Assembly: GCA_945897465.1 (NCBI GenBank)
Contig: CAMDFK010000024.1
Coordinates: forward strand, 1 to 57,917
Source of the DNA: Limnohabitans sp. Rim8
GTDB taxonomy: Bacteria > Pseudomonadota > Gammaproteobacteria > Burkholderiales > Burkholderiaceae_C
DNA length: 57,917 bases
Reading direction: 5' to 3'
Positions 46,544 to 55,199 of the stretch are shown piece after piece; the first letter of the stretch is position 1, and each line of letters begins with the position of its first letter. Under the pieces are notes generated by a model, which was not told the origin of the DNA, did not search any database, and saw nothing but the letters and a program-made list of their open reading frames with translations. The translations under genes were made by a program, and so were the position numbers.

Positions 46544-49468
46544 TCAGCTCAGGTGCTTGCCGATGATCCCGGTCAACTCGAACATGGTGGCACTCTCCTT
46601 GCCAAACACCGCTTGCAGCTTGCCATCGGCCTTGATGGCGCGCTTGTCTGCCGGGTCTTGCAAGCCGTTGGCCTTGATGTAGTCCCAGATTTTTTTCACC
46701 ACTTCGGTGCGGGCATAGGTGCCGTCCCCAATCACGGCCATCAGGGCCGGGCTCGGTTTGAGGGTGCCCACAGCGGCTTTGCGCGGCGTCTTCTCGGCAG
46801 CAGGCTTGGCGGCCTTTTTAGCGGCAGGCGCTTTGGTGGTTTTAGCCGGGGTCTTTTTAGCGGCCGCTTTGCCAAACGGCGTCTTGGTCGCCGCGGTCTT
46901 GCGTGGTGGGTATTTCTTGCCGCCTTCGCGCGGCTCAAACTCAAAGGTCACCTTGCCCTCTTCGGGGTTCCAGGCCAGCATGGCCTTGAAGGGGCGGCGG
47001 GTGCGGTTGCTGACGAACTTGTCGAGCACATCGGTTTTGCCGCTGGTCAAGAGCTTCACGACCTGCTCGCGCTCCACCGGTTGCTGCAAGATGAGTTTGC
47101 CGGTTTTGAAGTCGCAGCTGGGTGTGGGCTGTTCGTTCGTGGGCACGGCTTTGCTGCACAGGTAGTTGCTGCCGTGCTCGTGCACCGGGCTGCCGCACTT
47201 GGGACAGGCGCCAAGCGCTTCGTCGGTGAGCTCAACGATCTCGCCGCTCTCTTCGTTTTTCTTGTCGTCACCAAAGTCGAATTCGAGCTTCCAGTTCTTT
47301 TCTTCTTCGTTGTATTTGAGCGCCATCTCGGCCACGAAGGGCCAGCCCGCCTTGGAGCGGAAGCCTTCGAGCGGGCCAATCTTTTTATCGCGCATGAACT
47401 GCTCGACCTCGACTTGTTCAAAGGTGCGGCCGGCAGGTGACTTGCCAAATGAGAAACCGCAACCTTCGCTGGCGCCGTCGGCCCCGGTGCAGGTGTACCT
47501 GCGGTAGTTTTCCTTGACCACACCGCCGCAATTGGGACAGGGGGTGCTGAGCATGGCGTAGTCGCCAGGCACGGTGTCGCGGTCGTACTCTTTGGCTTTC
47601 TTGACGATGTGCTCGGTCATGGCCGCGATCTCGGCCATGAAGGTGGCGCGGCTCAATTTGCCTTGCTCCATCTGGGCGAGCTTGTATTCCCACTCGCCCG
47701 TGAGTTCGGGGCGCGAGAGTTCTTCCACCTGCAGGCCGCGCAGCAACGTCATGAGCTGGAAAGCTTTGGCCGTGGGGATGATCTCGCGGCCTTCGCGCAG
47801 CATGTATTTTTCGTTCAGCAGGCCTTCGATGATGGCCGCGCGGGTCGCGGGTGTGCCCAGACCTTTTTCCTGCATGGCTTCGCGCAGCTCGTCGTCGTCC
47901 ACCAACTTGCCCGCGCCTTCCATGGCGCCCAGCAGCGTGGCTTCTGAATAGCGGGCAGGGGGCCGGGTCTTCAGGCCCTTGGCCTCAACCGACTCGACGC
48001 CGACCTGTTCGCCCGGCTGCACCGGCACCAGGTTCTGACCCTTGTCACCGTCTTTGGCGTCTTCCACTTCGGCGGCGGCTTCTTTGCCATAAATGGCCAA
48101 CCAACCGGGTTTGACCAGCACCTTGCCCACGGTCTTGAAGCTGTGGCCTGCGGCCACGCTGATGCGGGTGGTGACTTGGTATTCGGCGCTGGGGAAGAAG
48201 ACCGCCATGAAGCGGCGCACCACCAGGTCGTACAGCTTTTGCTCGGCCTCGGACAGGCCGCTGGGCGCTTGCAGCGTGGGGATGATGGCGAAGTGGTCCG
48301 ACACCTTTTTGTTGTCGAACACGCGCGGAATCTTGCGCACGTAGTTGTTGTTCAGCGCCGTGAGCGCGTGTGGGGCCAGGTGGCGCATGCCGCTGTCGGC
48401 CAGCATCTCGAAGGTTTGTTTGGCCACGGGCACGTAGTCCTCGGGCAGGTGGCGCGAATCGGTTCGCGGGTAGGTCAGGGCCTTGTGGCGCTCGTACAGG
48501 CTCTGCGCCAAGGCCAGCGTGGTCTTGGCCGAGAAGCCGAATTTGCCGTTGGCTTCGCGCTGCAGGCTGGTCAGGTCAAACAGGCCGGGGCTCGCTTGTG
48601 TGGTGGGCGTGGCCTCTTCGCTCACCCTGGCGGTCTTGCCGCGCACGGCGTCCACGATCGCTTGGGCCTCGGCGGCGGTCCACTTCCGGTCGGCTTTCTT
48701 TTCGGCGTCTTCTTCTTTTTTCCAGGCCGGATCGAACCACTTGCCGGGGTAGGTGCCTGCAGCGGCCGCGAACTCGGCGTGGATTTCCCAATAGTCGCGA
48801 CTGATGAACTTGCGGATCTGCTCTTCGCGTTCCACCACCACGGCCAGCGTGGGCGTTTGCACGCGGCCCACGGTGGTGAGGAAAAAGCCGCCATCGCGCG
48901 AGTTGAACGCGGTCATGGCCCGCGTGCCGTTGATGCCCACCAGCCAATCGGCCTCAGAGCGGCTGCGGGCGGCGTCGGCCAGGCCCTGCATCTGTGTGTT
49001 GCTGCGCAGGCTGTCAAAGCCGTCGCGAATCGCTTGTGGCGTCATGGACTGCAGCCACAGGCGCTGCACCGGCTTGTTCAGGGGCTTGGTGCCGCCTGCG
49101 TACTGTTCGATAAGGCGGAAGATCAACTCGCCCTCGCGGCCCGCGTCACAGGCGTTGATCAGGGCGTCCACATCCTTGCGCTTGGCTTGCCTCACCACGG
49201 CCGTCAAACGGCTCTTGGTTTTGTCCACCGGCTTCAGGTCAAAGTGCGGCGGGATCACCGGCAAGTTGGCAAAGCTCCACTTGCCACGTTTCACGTCGTA
49301 TTGCTCGGGGGCCTGGATCTCCACCAGGTGGCCCACAGCGCTGGTCACGACGTAGCGGTCGTTCTCGAAATGGTCGTCGTGTTTCTCGAACTTGCCCGAG
49401 GCCGGGGTCAAGGCTTTGACGATGTCTTGAGCCACCGAAGGCTTCTCTGCAATTACCAAGGTCTTCAT
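46544..49468 (-). CDS. topB: DNA topoisomerase III fused to a Lys/Ala-rich linker and SWIB domain
   Basis: A 974-residue type IA topoisomerase that relaxes or decatenates DNA through a single-strand break. The Toprim part has LVIAEKPSVAQDIV and NACDAGREGELIFRLIEQ (acidic triad near 108), and the nucleophile is in ALTYPRTDSRHLP (Tyr near 333). Zinc-finger-like Cys pairs (CPNCGGVV, CPKCGSPVHEHG) follow from about 650. Residues about 851-900 are a Lys/Ala/Thr-rich histone-H1-like linker (KAAAKKTPAKTTKAPAAKK). Residues about 902-974 (KPSPALMAVIG ... VKKIWDYIKANGLQDPADKR ... FELTGIIGKHLS) are a SWIB/MDM2 domain. Start at 49468 follows the family; a longer ATG (49576) has none. Divergent from the SET gene. 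Confidence 0.95.
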   Translation of the reverse strand: MKTLVIAEKPSVAQDIVKALTPASGKFEKHDDHFENDRYVVTSAVGHLVEIQAPEQYDVKRGKWSFANLPVIPPHFDLKPVDKTKSRLTAVVRQAKRKDVDALINACDAGREGELIFRLIEQYAGGTKPLNKPVQRLWLQSMTPQAIRDGFDSLRSNTQMQGLADAARSRSEADWLVGINGTRAMTAFNSRDGGFFLTTVGRVQTPTLAVVVEREEQIRKFISRDYWEIHAEFAAAAGTYPGKWFDPAWKKEEDAEKKADRKWTAAEAQAIVDAVRGKTARVSEEATPTTQASPGLFDLTSLQREANGKFGFSAKTTLALAQSLYERHKALTYPRTDSRHLPEDYVPVAKQTFEMLADSGMRHLAPHALTALNNNYVRKIPRVFDNKKVSDHFAIIPTLQAPSGLSEAEQKLYDLVVRRFMAVFFPSAEYQVTTRISVAAGHSFKTVGKVLVKPGWLAIYGKEAAAEVEDAKDGDKGQNLVPVQPGEQVGVESVEAKGLKTRPPARYSEATLLGAMEGAGKLVDDDELREAMQEKGLGTPATRAAIIEGLLNEKYMLREGREIIPTAKAFQLMTLLRGLQVEELSRPELTGEWEYKLAQMEQGKLSRATFMAEIAAMTEHIVKKAKEYDRDTVPGDYAMLSTPCPNCGGVVKENYRRYTCTGADGASEGCGFSFGKSPAGRTFEQVEVEQFMRDKKIGPLEGFRSKAGWPFVAEMALKYNEEEKNWKLEFDFGDDKKNEESGEIVELTDEALGACPKCGSPVHEHGSNYLCSKAVPTNEQPTPSCDFKTGKLILQQPVEREQVVKLLTSGKTDVLDKFVSNRTRRPFKAMLAWNPEEGKVTFEFEPREGGKKYPPRKTAATKTPFGKAAAKKTPAKTTKAPAAKKAAKPAAEKTPRKAAVGTLKPSPALMAVIGDGTYARTEVVKKIWDYIKANGLQDPADKRAIKADGKLQAVFGKESATMFELTGIIGKHLS

Positions 49469-49490
49469 GTCATTACAATCCGTTGTCTCG

Positions 49491-49535
49491 CGTGTACGCA
49501 CGCGCCCGGGCACGCGCCCACACGCACGCACACAT
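49491..49535. other. Alternating purine-pyrimidine tract between topB and the SET gene
   Basis: GTGTACGCACGCGCCCGGGC continues as ACGCGCCCACACGCACGCAC with ACATG. The long alternating pattern can adopt Z-DNA under negative supercoiling. It lies in the 95-base divergent promoter region. Confidence 0.5.
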
Positions 49536-49563
49536 GAATTCACCATAACAAATTTTTGACGCC

Positions 49564-50097
49564 GTGGCCAAAACACCTGAATCTTCCTCTCGCCGATCTG
49601 CCCCGAGCACGTCCGGCAAACGCATCCAGGTGCGCCGCTCCGGCGTGCATGGCAAGGGCGTGTTTGCCCTGCAGGACATCGCCGAAGGCGAAACCCTGAT
49701 CGAGTACGTGGGCGAGGTCATCAGCTGGGACGAGGCGCAAGCCCGCCACCCGCACGACCCCGAAGACCCGAACCACACGTTTTACTTTCATGTGAACGAA
49801 GACCGGGTGATCGACGCCCTGTATGGCGGCAATTCCTCGCGCTGGATCAACCACAGCTGCGACCCCAACTGCGAAGCCGACGAAGACAACGACCGCATCT
49901 TCATCAAAGCCATCCGCAACATCAAAGCGGGTGAAGAGCTCAATTACGACTACGGTCTGATCATCGACGAGCCCTACACCAAGAAGCTCAAGGCCGAATA
50001 TCCCTGCTGGTGTGGCAGTGCCCATTGCCGGGGCACGCTGCTGGCCCCCAAACGCCGCCCGGCGACGCCCAAAAACCCCAGCCAGAAAAAGCGCTGA
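49564..50097 (+). CDS. SET-domain protein-lysine methyltransferase
   Basis: A 177-residue protein from a GTG at 49564 (GCCGTGGCC; the next ATG is inside the domain). SET domain from about 21 to 145: IQVRRSGVHGKGVFALQDIAEGETLIEYVGEVI, RWINHSCDPNCEA (S-adenosylmethionine pocket, about 93) and AGEELNYDYG (about 123). A post-SET Cys cluster CWCGSAHC follows (about 148). The N- and C-termini are basic. SET proteins methylate lysine; bacterial examples modify histone-like or ribosomal proteins. It is divergent from a topoisomerase that carries a histone-like tail, so that tail is a candidate target (inference). Confidence 0.9.
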   Translation: MAKTPESSSRRSAPSTSGKRIQVRRSGVHGKGVFALQDIAEGETLIEYVGEVISWDEAQARHPHDPEDPNHTFYFHVNEDRVIDALYGGNSSRWINHSCDPNCEADEDNDRIFIKAIRNIKAGEELNYDYGLIIDEPYTKKLKAEYPCWCGSAHCRGTLLAPKRRPATPKNPSQKKR

Positions 50098-50099
50098 AC

Positions 50100-50229
50100 C
50101 ATGGATCGCTTCGTGCCTCGCGATGACAGCTCACCGCGAAGGCGAGCGCAGCGCGGCAATCCATGGATCGCTTCGTACCTCGCGATGACGGGTCAAACGT
50201 CATGGCGAGCGAAGCGTGGCAATCCATGG
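50100..50229. repeat. Cluster of four dispersed palindromic repeats
   Basis: Copies at 50100-50128, 50131-50164, 50162-50190 and 50199-50229 alternate in orientation (e.g. CCATGGATCGCTTCGTGCCT and GCGAGCGCAGCGCGGCAATC). They fill the 172 bases between the SET gene and birA; no gene is seen there. Confidence 0.85.
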
Positions 50230-50269: not shown

Positions 50270-51031
50270 ATGATCACCCCCACCCCTTGGCCCGCTGAAA
50301 CCATCTGGGAACAGGTCTACCCCCTGTTGCTCGACTTCACCGTCGAGGTGTTGCCCGAGATCGACTCGAGCAACAGCGAGCTCATGCGCCGCGCCCGCGC
50401 AGGCCAGCACGAGCCGACTTTGTTGGTGGCCGAGCGCCAAACCGCAGGCCGTGGCCGCATGGGGCGCGTCTGGCAAAGCCATCCGGATGACTCGCTCACT
50501 TTTTCCCTCAGCTTGCCCTTGGCCCCCAAAGACTGGTCGGGCCTGTCGCTGGCCGTGGGCCTGAGCCTGGCCGAAAGTCTGCACCCCGGCGTGGGCTTGA
50601 AGTGGCCCAACGATTTGTGGTTTCAGGACCGCAAACTCGGTGGCATCTTGGTTGAGGCGGCCAGCATGGGCGGGCGCAGCCAGGTGGTGGTGGGCGTGGG
50701 CCTGAACATCCGCCCCCGCGCTTCAGACGGGCTGAACACGCCGCCCGCGGCCCTGAGCGAGTTGCTGCCCGAAATCACGGCCCCCGCGGCTTTGGCGCGT
50801 GTGGCTTGGCCCTTGATCCAGACCCTGAAGGCTTTTGAAGCCCAGGGTTTTGCGCCGCTGCAAAGTCGCTTTGCTGCGCGTGACGTGCTGCAAGGCCGTA
50901 CCGTGCGCACCAGCGATGGCCAGCAAGGCGTGTCGTTGGGGGTGGGCCCCGGGGGTGCGTTACGATTACTGGCTGAGCTTGGCGTGCAGGACATCCACAG
51001 CGCCGAGATCAGCGTACGACCTTTGACCTGA
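50270..51031 (+). CDS. birA: Biotin--[acetyl-CoA-carboxylase] ligase, catalytic form
   Basis: Attaches biotin to the acetyl-CoA carboxylase carrier protein. The 253-residue protein has LPEIDSSNSELMRRA, the biotin-AMP motif AERQTAGRGRMGRVW, GVGLKWPNDLWFQDRKLGGILVEA (Lys) and VVVGVGLNIRPR, then a C-terminal SH3-like cap. It has no N-terminal DNA-binding domain, so it is the non-repressor class II... monofunctional type. ATG at 50270 lies just after the repeat cluster; two more genes follow at 14- and 24-base gaps. Confidence 0.95.
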   Translation: MITPTPWPAETIWEQVYPLLLDFTVEVLPEIDSSNSELMRRARAGQHEPTLLVAERQTAGRGRMGRVWQSHPDDSLTFSLSLPLAPKDWSGLSLAVGLSLAESLHPGVGLKWPNDLWFQDRKLGGILVEAASMGGRSQVVVGVGLNIRPRASDGLNTPPAALSELLPEITAPAALARVAWPLIQTLKAFEAQGFAPLQSRFAARDVLQGRTVRTSDGQQGVSLGVGPGGALRLLAELGVQDIHSAEISVRPLT

Positions 51032-52077: not shown

Positions 52078-52303
52078 ATGGACTGCCGCGTCGCTGCGCT
52101 CCTTGCAGTGACGGATTTTTCGGGTTGTGGCAGCTTCGCAGTGCCGTTTAAATTGTCATTGCAGTGTGGTTTAAATTGTCATTGCAGTGCCGTTTAAATT
52201 GTCATTGCGAGCGAAGCGCGGCAATCCATGACCCGCAACCGCCCACGCATGGACTGCCGCGTCGCTGCGCTCCTCGCAGTGACGGATTTTTCGGGTTGCG
52301 GCA
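52078..52303. repeat. Composite repeat: flanking duplicates, three 23-base tandem units and a palindromic repeat
   Basis: A block of about 53 bases (TGGACTGCCGCGTCGCTGCG ... GATTTTTCGGGTTG) occurs at 52078-52132 and again at 52251-52303. Between them lie three 23-base units (52138-52160, 52161-52183, 52184-52206, core GTTTAAATTGTCATT) and one dispersed palindromic repeat (52200-52230). It fills the 292-base gap between the GST and the convergent histidine kinase; no gene is seen. Confidence 0.85.
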
Positions 52304-52351: not shown

Positions 52352-53812
52352 TCAGCTCACCCCAAAGCGCAAAGTGAAGCAGGCGCCAGGAGGTGTCTGA
52401 CCTGGATGGGCCGCATCGACACTGACCGTGGCCCTGTGCTGTTGAGCGATTTCCTTGACGATCGGCAAACCCAGGCCTGAACCATCCACATTGGTCCCCA
52501 AAGCGCGGTAAAAGGGCTGGAAAACCAGCTCGCGCTCGGACAAGGGAATGCCCGGGCCGTTGTCCTCTACCTGGATCACCAAAGCACGGCTGTAGGGGTC
52601 CACCAGCACCCGCAGAGTGATCACACCTTGCCGCTCTGGCGTGCTGGGCGTGTAGTGAACGCTGTTTTCAACCAGGTTGCGCAGCATCTCCTTGAGCAAC
52701 GTGGGGTTGCCCTGCACCTGAACGCCTGGGGTGCCTGCCACCACCCCCTCGTAGCCCAGGTCCAGCCCCTTGTCCATGGCGTGTGGCAAGCTGTCTTGCA
52801 AGACCTCGCTGGCCAGCTTGACCATGTCGCAAGATTGCAAGGTCAAGTTGGTGCCCCCGCCTTCAGCCCTCGCCAGTGACAGCAATTGGTTGACCGTGTG
52901 GGTGGCTTGCACGCTGGCACGGCCAATTTGCTGCAAGGATTTTTTCAGGTCCACCTCGCTCGAGCCTGATCGCTGCGCCAGGTCAGCTTGCATCCGCAGA
53001 CCGGCCAAAGGCGTTTTGAGCTGGTGTGCGGCGTCGGCCAAAAAGCGTTTTTGGGTGACGATGGAGTCTTTCAGGCGTTCAAGCAGGTCGTTCACCGAGA
53101 CCACCAAAGGGGCCACTTCCATGGGAACGGCCTTGTCGTCCAAGGGGCTCAGGTCATCGGGTTTGCGCTCGCGGATCCGTTCTTCAAGCTGGGACAGCGG
53201 TTTGATGCCGCGTACCAAGGCCAGCCAAACCAGCAACACCGCCAGTGGCAACAGGGCGAACTGGGGCAGCATCACGCCCTTGATGATCTCGGCCGCCAGC
53301 ACCGAGCGCTTTTCGCGGGTTTCGGCCACCTGCACCAGGGCCGGGCGCTTGCCCTCGGCATCCAATTGGATCCAGGTGTAGGCCACCCGCACTTCCAGTC
53401 CCCGCATTTCGTCGTCGCGGATTTGCACTTCGTAGCTGTTGCCCCTGGGTTCATTGGATTTGGGCAGAGGCAACTCGCGGTCACCGCTCAGGTGCTCGCC
53501 CATGCTGCCGGTCACCTGGTAGTACACCAGATCGGTTTCGTCGGCACGCAGCAGTTCGCTGGCCGGTTGTGGCAAGCTGAATTGAACCAACTTGTCGGGC
53601 CCCAACCTGACCTGTTGGGCCAAGGCCTGCACGTTGTAGACCAGCGCCCGATCAAAAGGTTTGTTGGCCAAACCTTGCGCCACCAGCCAAGTGAGCGCCA
53701 GGCTGATTGGCCACAGCAGCAGCAATGGCGTCAGCATCCAGTCGAGGATTTCGCCAAACAGCGAGCGCTGTTCGCGTTTGAAGACCCGCATGCTCCAGCC
53801 CTTGGATTTCAT
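52352..53812 (-). CDS. Sensor histidine kinase, TctE-like
   Basis: An inner-membrane sensor of about 486 residues. Helices near 20-40 and 185-205 bracket a periplasmic domain. HisKA: FLADAAHQLKTPLAGLRMQ (phospho-His). ATPase: NLVENSVHYTP (N box), VEDNGPGIP (G1) and GSGLGLPIVKEI (G2). The opening FKREQRSLFGEILDWML resembles TctE sensors of tricarboxylate uptake, but no tctCBA transport genes are here. Start could be 53812 or 53791. The response regulator is upstream in the same operon (gap about 36 bases). Confidence 0.9.
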   Translation of the reverse strand: MKSKGWSMRVFKREQRSLFGEILDWMLTPLLLLWPISLALTWLVAQGLANKPFDRALVYNVQALAQQVRLGPDKLVQFSLPQPASELLRADETDLVYYQVTGSMGEHLSGDRELPLPKSNEPRGNSYEVQIRDDEMRGLEVRVAYTWIQLDAEGKRPALVQVAETREKRSVLAAEIIKGVMLPQFALLPLAVLLVWLALVRGIKPLSQLEERIRERKPDDLSPLDDKAVPMEVAPLVVSVNDLLERLKDSIVTQKRFLADAAHQLKTPLAGLRMQADLAQRSGSSEVDLKKSLQQIGRASVQATHTVNQLLSLARAEGGGTNLTLQSCDMVKLASEVLQDSLPHAMDKGLDLGYEGVVAGTPGVQVQGNPTLLKEMLRNLVENSVHYTPSTPERQGVITLRVLVDPYSRALVIQVEDNGPGIPLSERELVFQPFYRALGTNVDGSGLGLPIVKEIAQQHRATVSVDAAHPGQTPPGACFTLRFGVS

Positions 53813-54657: not shown

Positions 54658-55161
54658 TCAATTTGCATAAGCCTCCAGCCCCAAGGCCACCACGGTGGCC
54701 ACATCCTTGCCCACCGCCTCGCGAAACTCGGCCTCGGCTTGGGCCACGGCGTCCCTGAAGGCCTGCAGCCAGGCCAGCCCCACAGGCGTGAACACCACGC
54801 GTCGTGCGCGTGCGTCCAGAGGGTCGGCCTCACGCTGCACCAGGCCCCACGCAGCGCATTGGTCGACCAAGTCGCCCATCGCCTGTTTGCTCATGCCTGC
54901 AGCCCGCGCCAGCTCGGTCAGGCGCGAGCCCTCCAGCGCCAGATGACGCGTGATGTGCACATGCGCGGCGCTGATCTGGTCGCGGGCTGCCAGATTGGCC
55001 AAGGCCAGCGGTACGCCTTCATTGCCCGCCATCAGGTGCAGCACCCGCTCGTCAAAACGCCGCATCGCGTGGCCCAGCAGGCGGCCCAAATGGGTCTCTC
55101 GCCAGCGATCATCCTGCCAAAGGGGGCTGGCTGAGGCACTGAAATCGGTGTAGTCTGGCAT
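54658..55161 (-). CDS. MarR-family transcriptional regulator
   Basis: A 167-residue dimeric winged-helix regulator. The DNA-binding part is around 60-130: ITRHLALEGSRLTELARAAGMSKQAMGDLVDQCAAWGLVQREADPLDARARRVVFTPVG, where SKQAMGDLVDQ is the recognition helix and DARARR the wing. I chose the ATG at 55161; an earlier one gives an odd leader. A candidate operator lies just before the start. It is divergent from recA, 141 bases away, but need not control it. Confidence 0.9.
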   Translation of the reverse strand: MPDYTDFSASASPLWQDDRWRETHLGRLLGHAMRRFDERVLHLMAGNEGVPLALANLAARDQISAAHVHITRHLALEGSRLTELARAAGMSKQAMGDLVDQCAAWGLVQREADPLDARARRVVFTPVGLAWLQAFRDAVAQAEAEFREAVGKDVATVVALGLEAYAN

Positions 55162-55165
55162 GGCT

Positions 55166-55199
55166 AAATGATAAGGCAAACTGACCAAAAATATCATTT
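55166..55199. promoter_or_regulatory. Candidate MarR operator, AAATGATA/TATCATTT inverted repeat
   Basis: A perfect 8-base inverted repeat (55166-55173 and 55192-55199) with an 18-base spacer, immediately before the marR-type start codon. The centre-to-centre distance is about 26 bases. Confidence 0.45.

Follow-up and report, generated by a model that had tools for sequence, protein, structure and literature searches.

A conserved SET–topB gene pair in a Burkholderiales family and the recurrence of SET genes beside genes for DNA-architecture proteins

A DNA topoisomerase III gene (topB) and a gene for a predicted SET-domain protein lysine methyltransferase (SET) lie in divergent orientation on contig CAMDFK010000024.1 of Limnohabitans sp. 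Rim8 (GenBank assembly GCA_945897465.1; 3.02 Mb genome), the whole 57,917-nucleotide stretch of which is referred to here as the window. Limnohabitans are free-living freshwater bacteria. The SET|topB pair is real, old, and family-wide, and the occurrence of SET genes beside genes for DNA-architecture proteins (topB, gyrB, HU, and H-NS) is a stronger general pattern than the pair with topB. This recurrence points to nucleoid proteins as the substrates. The explanation that we favor, tentatively and with somewhat less than even confidence, is that SET works within its own cell as an endogenous protein lysine methyltransferase, with lysine-rich DNA-architecture proteins as its targets, and that the tail of TopB is one plausible substrate. 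This explanation draws on the gene pair and its conservation, the intact SET motifs, purifying selection, a predicted disordered tail with conserved sites, and the recurrent neighborhoods of SET with DNA-architecture genes.

In the proposed mechanism, SET would methylate lysine-rich DNA-binding proteins that shape the bacterial chromosome. The enzyme activity and all of its substrates are putative; the candidates are the TopB tail (K857 and K897, which bracket a variable Lys/Ala/Thr stretch), a standalone SWIB-domain protein with a histone H1-like tail, and HU or H-NS. A methylated lysine retains its charge but can no longer be acetylated, and its contacts are altered. The modification would tune the contacts of the tail with DNA or with protein and, through these, the hold of TopB on DNA, so that any effect on topology is likewise putative.

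The original prediction placed SET and topB head to head across 95 bases, and both genes are intact on either side of this gap. A comparison of gene neighborhoods across related genomes, set beforehand as a check, came out in favor of the pair. Among 60 genomes sampled from the family of the source organism, one per genus, SET was detected in 56 and topB, at the threshold used, in 58. SET is divergent from topB in 55 of the 60, that is, in every genome in which the reading of the loci allowed both genes to be placed (the count includes G045, where the contig ends within the topB beside SET). The exceptions are three genomes with topB and no SET (G024, G026, and G038), one with a distant SET in which topB was not found (G043), and one with neither gene (G057). 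The pair is also present in two further family genomes from a sample of the order (G108 and G152). In 80 named loci, a divergent topB start is found in 75, with a median gap of 97 bases, and birA, the biotin-protein ligase gene on the other side of SET, in 77; the five loci with no topB start have less than 700 bases upstream of SET, and those in which birA is missing likewise have short flanks. A SET match occurs in 287 of 300 family genomes, and the 13 without it belong to six genera with genomes of 2.4–3.1 Mb.

The Pfam match of the SET protein lies over the cut-off (E 2.5e-26), and the nearest sequences in PDB are MLL-type methyltransferases, with an alignment over residues 11–157 that includes the post-SET cysteines. 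The motifs, which we take to be GxG, NHSCxPN, GEELxYDY, and the post-SET CxCx(n)C, have cores that are invariant across 21 aligned sequences. Loose patterns for every motif are present in 48 of 58 family SETs; seven miss one pattern, and in three, one of which contains unresolved sequence, the post-SET pattern is lacking. SET is under purifying selection: across 14 pairs, the ratio of nonsynonymous to synonymous substitution rates (dN/dS) has a median of 0.13. The AlphaFold model of SET, with a mean predicted local distance difference test score (pLDDT) of 40, is too poor for use of its fold. The closest named SET relatives are from Limnohabitans, at 93% identity. A second chromosomal SET, remote from topB, is encoded in the same genome (G000:C32:23952-24257; L002, L317), and each of the four further genomes sampled from this genus also has two SET matches.

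TopB belongs to bacterial topoisomerase III, with a Toprim domain, a type IA core, and a match over the cut-off to the topB model. Homology supports the start at ATG 49468 (MKTLVIAEKPSV); the GTG at 49576, which opens the longest frame, would make topB overlap SET. The Pfam domains are Toprim, Topoisom_bac, Toprim_Crpt (in two stretches), and SWIB at residues 903–973 (E 4e-25); a Lys/Ala/Thr/Pro tail follows the last catalytic-repeat domain and precedes SWIB. The tail contains 15 lysines, three arginines, and two acidic residues among 58 residues counted. In the AlphaFold model, pLDDT is below 50 at residues 853–899 and about 85–93 over SWIB, so the tail is predicted to be disordered and SWIB to be confidently folded; the best PDB matches of this domain in Foldseek are SWIB/MDM2 domains, and its Pfam match lies over the cut-off. 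No globular winged-helix domain of histone H1 was found in a Pfam scan of TopB, and the likeness to H1 is one of tail composition only. An alignment of 14 tails (the window and 13 relatives, taken from the 16 of the 80 named loci that yielded a readable tail by pattern) shows two invariant sites, PPRK (K857, 46898–46900) and PRK (K897, 46778–46780), between which the tail varies through insertions and deletions. The fusion of topB, tail, and SWIB is not new, being already catalogued as NCBIfam NF011313 (PRK14724, topoisomerase III, 988 positions); this model spans residues 1–974 of the window TopB, tail and SWIB included, with 1929 bits. The SET neighbor lies outside the model, and otherwise there is no essential difference. 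The features of the locus are listed in Table 1.

Table 1. Features of the topB|SET-birA locus, in window coordinates.
Feature	Position	Strand	Basis or remark
topB, encoding DNA topoisomerase III; basic tail and SWIB at the C-terminus	46544..49468	-	974 aa; Pfam, NCBIfam
SWIB domain	46550..46762	-	Pfam PF02201; fold matches 1v31, 1uhr
H1-like Lys/Ala/Thr/Pro tail, residues ~847-902	46763..46930	-	Composition, alignment, predicted disorder
Divergent intergenic region, 95 bases	49469..49563	.	SET and topB start either side
Predicted SET-domain protein lysine methyltransferase, 177 aa; starts at GTG, C-terminus basic	49564..50097	+	
SET domain proper	49651..49956	+	
birA (biotin-protein ligase), third gene in the conserved block	50270..51031	+	TIGR00121 over cut-off, frame from 50216

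The TopB tail, which the original prediction proposed as the target of SET, is a candidate substrate that is neither demonstrated nor required. Near the start of the tail, the pattern KxPx[RK]K[TSAV], picked after inspection of the tails, occurs in 34 of 55 tails from genomes with SET, where shuffling gives 0.5 on average; among the 13 tails from genomes without SET, it occurs in 3. The median share of lysine among the basic residues of the tail, K/(K+R), is 0.80 in 55 genomes with SET and 0.64 in 13 without (the count omits L102, L104, and L106, where the tail or topB is missing). In one genus that lacks SET (L085, L284, L286, and L287), arginine stands in place of lysine in the topB tails, which contain 0, 0, 1, and 0 lysines.

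A broader basis for the favored explanation comes from SET genes at other loci. On plasmids, tblastn located SET in 50 records, 45 of which are from Paraburkholderia, Caballeronia, or Burkholderia. In a tblastn search of 21 plasmid regions that were viewed, HU is present in seven (L341, L343, L345, L347, L353, L357, and L358), an HU fragment in one (L342), and H-NS in two (L339 and L352), in both within 1.5 kb of SET. Of the 20 comparable records, selected for being in both the SET list and the 60 listed of 2,760 HU records, seven have HU within 1 kb of SET, against an expectation of 0.19 (best SET place) or 0.31 (all SET places); P is below 1e-8 if the cases are independent and 0.003 if only three are. 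SET paralogues on Burkholderiaceae megaplasmids are beside HU or H-NS more often than chance. Divergent, tandem-upstream, and tandem-downstream arrangements of HU and SET all occur, and the four plasmid HU proteins that were read have no lysine-rich tail.

On chromosomes outside the family, SET is also found with gyrase genes. Elsewhere in the Burkholderiales, several families have dnaN-gyrB facing topB-dprA-lysM-def (L122, L123, L131, L133, L136, L139, L140, and L141, with dnaN outside the stretch in L131), and in one family (f6) SET lies between gyrB and topB in the layout gyrB-SET-><-topB, 3 bp from topB in G064. The gene identities at the f6 locus were checked; the contig of G114 starts near SET, and gyrB is not visible there. 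In a further family (f32), SET directly follows gyrB in two of three genomes. The f6 SETs fall far from those of the source family, f32, and f10 in the SET tree, the backbone of which is weakly supported, so that the association of SET with topoisomerase genes may have arisen more than once. One distant SET, placed one gene from parE by eye and similarity, was set aside. The original prediction described two eukaryote-like chromatin elements, SET and the SWIB-bearing topoisomerase, head to head, and their arrival as a unit is not supported. In a tree of 68 topB cores rooted at its midpoint, the SWIB-bearing enzymes fall in one clade of the family (two members of this clade, G022 and G029, are without SWIB), and the SET|topB pair is spread over the entire family; since the pair is present in the part without SWIB, the two elements were not acquired together. 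On the simplest reading of the tree, topB had its tail and its SET neighbor before SWIB was added.

An extended form of the favored explanation would make the Burkholderiales SETs an endogenous chromatin lysine-methylation system, in which the targets of the chromosomal SET are the tails of topoisomerase III and the H1-tailed SWIB protein, and the plasmid SETs move together with HU or H-NS and modify them, tuning the packing of each replicon. We regard this extended form as unlikely.

Several observations weigh against methylation of DNA-architecture proteins by SET. Among the viewed plasmid regions, 11 of 21 are without HU or H-NS, and the plasmid SETs are paralogues, with 42–56% identity in those Burkholderiales and Xanthomonas records that match over most of the query. 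Several HU|SET cases also share ancestry: at least three of the seven have an integrase-DUF1488-HU|SET context and two are plasmids of a single strain, so that there are fewer than seven independent events. Genera without SET, other than the one with arginine tails, retain 8–12 tail lysines, most chromosomal topBs read in the order sample are basic-tailed whether SET is present or absent, and the three f6 tails hold only 1, 1, and 0 lysines despite the adjacent SET. In a phylogenetic regression, the effect of SET on the lysine bias of the tail has a p of 0.053 alone and 0.113 once GC content at third codon positions (GC3) and the K/(K+R) of the core are included in the model; with the lysine-less genus left out, the values are 0.022 and 0.082. 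The tracking of tail lysines with SET presence is suggestive, not significant after covariates, and was not retained as proof. Finally, birA, which has no known link to topology, keeps its place in 59 of 60 topB loci in a recount. Its adjacency is as faithful as that of SET, so synteny alone fails to single out TopB as the partner of SET and was rejected as proof of function; the conserved unit being topB|SET-birA, conservation by itself is silent on which neighbor SET serves.

These points suit a reading in which SET is a syntenic passenger, kept in an ancient topB-SET-birA block by vertical inheritance and acting on a substrate unrelated to topology, such as a ribosomal protein, a translation factor, or a BirA-linked target. 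This is a real contender, which we nevertheless place on the doubtful side. The faithfulness of birA, the independence of the topB tails from SET, and the position of most SETs away from topB outside the family (in the order sample, 26 genomes outside the family have a SET match, and only three, all of f6, have it beside topB) are consistent with it. At the level of the class, SET was found in 64 of 229 genomes, and none of the 20 SET loci fetched from this sample contains topB. The same recount argues against simple passage, however, because genes past birA are often missing while SET is present in 57 of the 60 topB loci: the histidine kinase gene was found in 31, the response regulator gene in 24, the MarR-like gene in 22, recA in 19, and recX in 15, sometimes on the opposite side of topB, and the acyl-CoA synthetase gene on the other side in 2 (the stretches cover about 8 kb per side where the contig allows, so that the counts are too low for genes farther out). 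In loci without SET, the distance from the topB start to birA is about 0.6 kb. The recurrence of SET beside HU and H-NS on plasmids, and beside gyrB or between gyrB and topB, also stands against a passenger.

A quite improbable alternative is that the main substrate is another DNA-architecture protein, the standalone H1-tailed SWIB protein or HU, with TopB merely a co-regulated or topologically related neighbor. The source genome encodes a standalone SWIB protein (G000:C12:46352-46567; L316) with a long MATAKKTPAKKAA... H1-like tail (MATAKK...AKKAA) that is longer and more purely H1-like than the tail of TopB, and HU does occur beside SET on plasmids. In the order sample, SWIB is found in 25 of 29 genomes with SET and in 21 of 91 without (Fisher p 1.5e-9). 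This co-occurrence, strong between families, is gone within families that are mixed for SET, in which SWIB is present in 11 of 12 genomes with SET and 12 of 15 without (a hand tally, with weak SET hits taken as present), and it was set aside as a link. The standalone SWIB tails, as read in 20 of the 46 SWIB-bearing genomes, are moreover lysine-rich in most genomes, with or without SET (2–26 and 2–24 lysines, respectively). Similar standalone SWIB proteins occur in much of the family and in many other Burkholderiales; an unrooted comparison splits the SWIB domains cleanly into 34 from topB and 25 from standalone proteins.

It is very doubtful that SET acts as a partner that binds and stimulates TopB, with automethylation of its own basic tail, not methylation of TopB, as the switch. 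The model for such a partner is human SETMAR (Metnase), a SET protein functionally coupled to topoisomerase TOP2A, the decatenation activity of which it enhances under restraint by automethylation (PMC8704517); automethylation is also reported for chlamydial NUE. SETMAR is a eukaryotic transposase fusion that works with a type II enzyme, and the passages seen do not present TOP2A as a protein that it methylates. Some family SETs have lysine-rich C-tails (32 lysines in 91 residues in G018), but 45 of the 55 C-tails measured have just 8–24 residues. A secreted nuclear effector acting on eukaryotic histones is barely credible. In its favor are the description of BtSET, from Burkholderia thailandensis, as an effector (PMC7819608) and a weak match of SET to the NCBIfam model of the Legionella effector AnkI/LegAS4, which at 44 bits against a cut-off of 550 falls short of membership in the LegAS4/RomA type. 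Against it, the gene occupies a housekeeping locus and a SET match is present across nearly the whole family (287 of 300 genomes), Limnohabitans included.

The favored explanation, with SET acting on the cell's own DNA-architecture proteins, has partial parallels elsewhere. Chlamydia, with TopA-SWIB, the standalone SWIB protein CT460, and the SET protein NUE (CT737), combines in one bacterium the same three elements as the source genome. Of the chlamydial precedent raised in the original prediction, the SWIB domain on a topoisomerase and the SET protein stand; the action of the SET enzyme on a histone-like protein is disputed and is weaker than stated; the literature that disputes it also cites, for the enzyme of C. 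pneumoniae, a positive result published earlier. A chromatin-remodeling complex of SET, SWIB, and topoisomerase has been proposed for Chlamydiae (PMC6426960). The chlamydial SWIB is carried by topoisomerase I, a TopA described as unlike other characterized TopAs (PMC12445093), whereas the enzyme here is topoisomerase III; NUE is secreted, and a divergent gene pair is not described in the chlamydial passages seen. The archaeal Go1-SET of Methanosarcina mazei is a prokaryotic SET tested on MC1-alpha, a DNA-binding protein of its own cell (PMC3980110); it comes from another domain of life, and no link to a topoisomerase appears in the passages available. Actinobacterial TopA enzymes with lysine-repeat tails were also compared; these are topoisomerase I, not III. 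We know of no SET partner for them.

In the open-access PMC literature, to which the search was confined and which most subscription papers lie outside, no paper containing both 'topoisomerase III' and 'SWIB' was found, nor, among the papers listed, was a SET-topB pair or a SET acting on HU evident. The open-access literature found on bacterial SETs centers, in the parts seen, on secreted effectors. A SET present in nearly every sampled genome of a family and locked to topB, together with plasmid paralogues beside HU and H-NS, yields a short list of candidate substrates.

In the gap between topB and SET, a promoter scan found no sigma-70-like consensus. A block just upstream of SET (49531–49557, CACATG...TTTTT) is nearly invariant in Limnohabitans (the window and 18 relatives, of which L142 and L171 differ within it) and is a candidate promoter or operator. 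Between SET and birA, at 50099–50229, a repeat occurs in two copies about 62 bases apart (CCATGGATCGCTTCG...GGCAATCCATGG), and a related copy at 52206–52231 makes it look like a dispersed intergenic repeat. Past birA, the window carries at 52352–56835 genes for a histidine kinase and a response regulator and a MarR-like gene (54658–55197), all three on the minus strand, and recA and recX on the plus strand.

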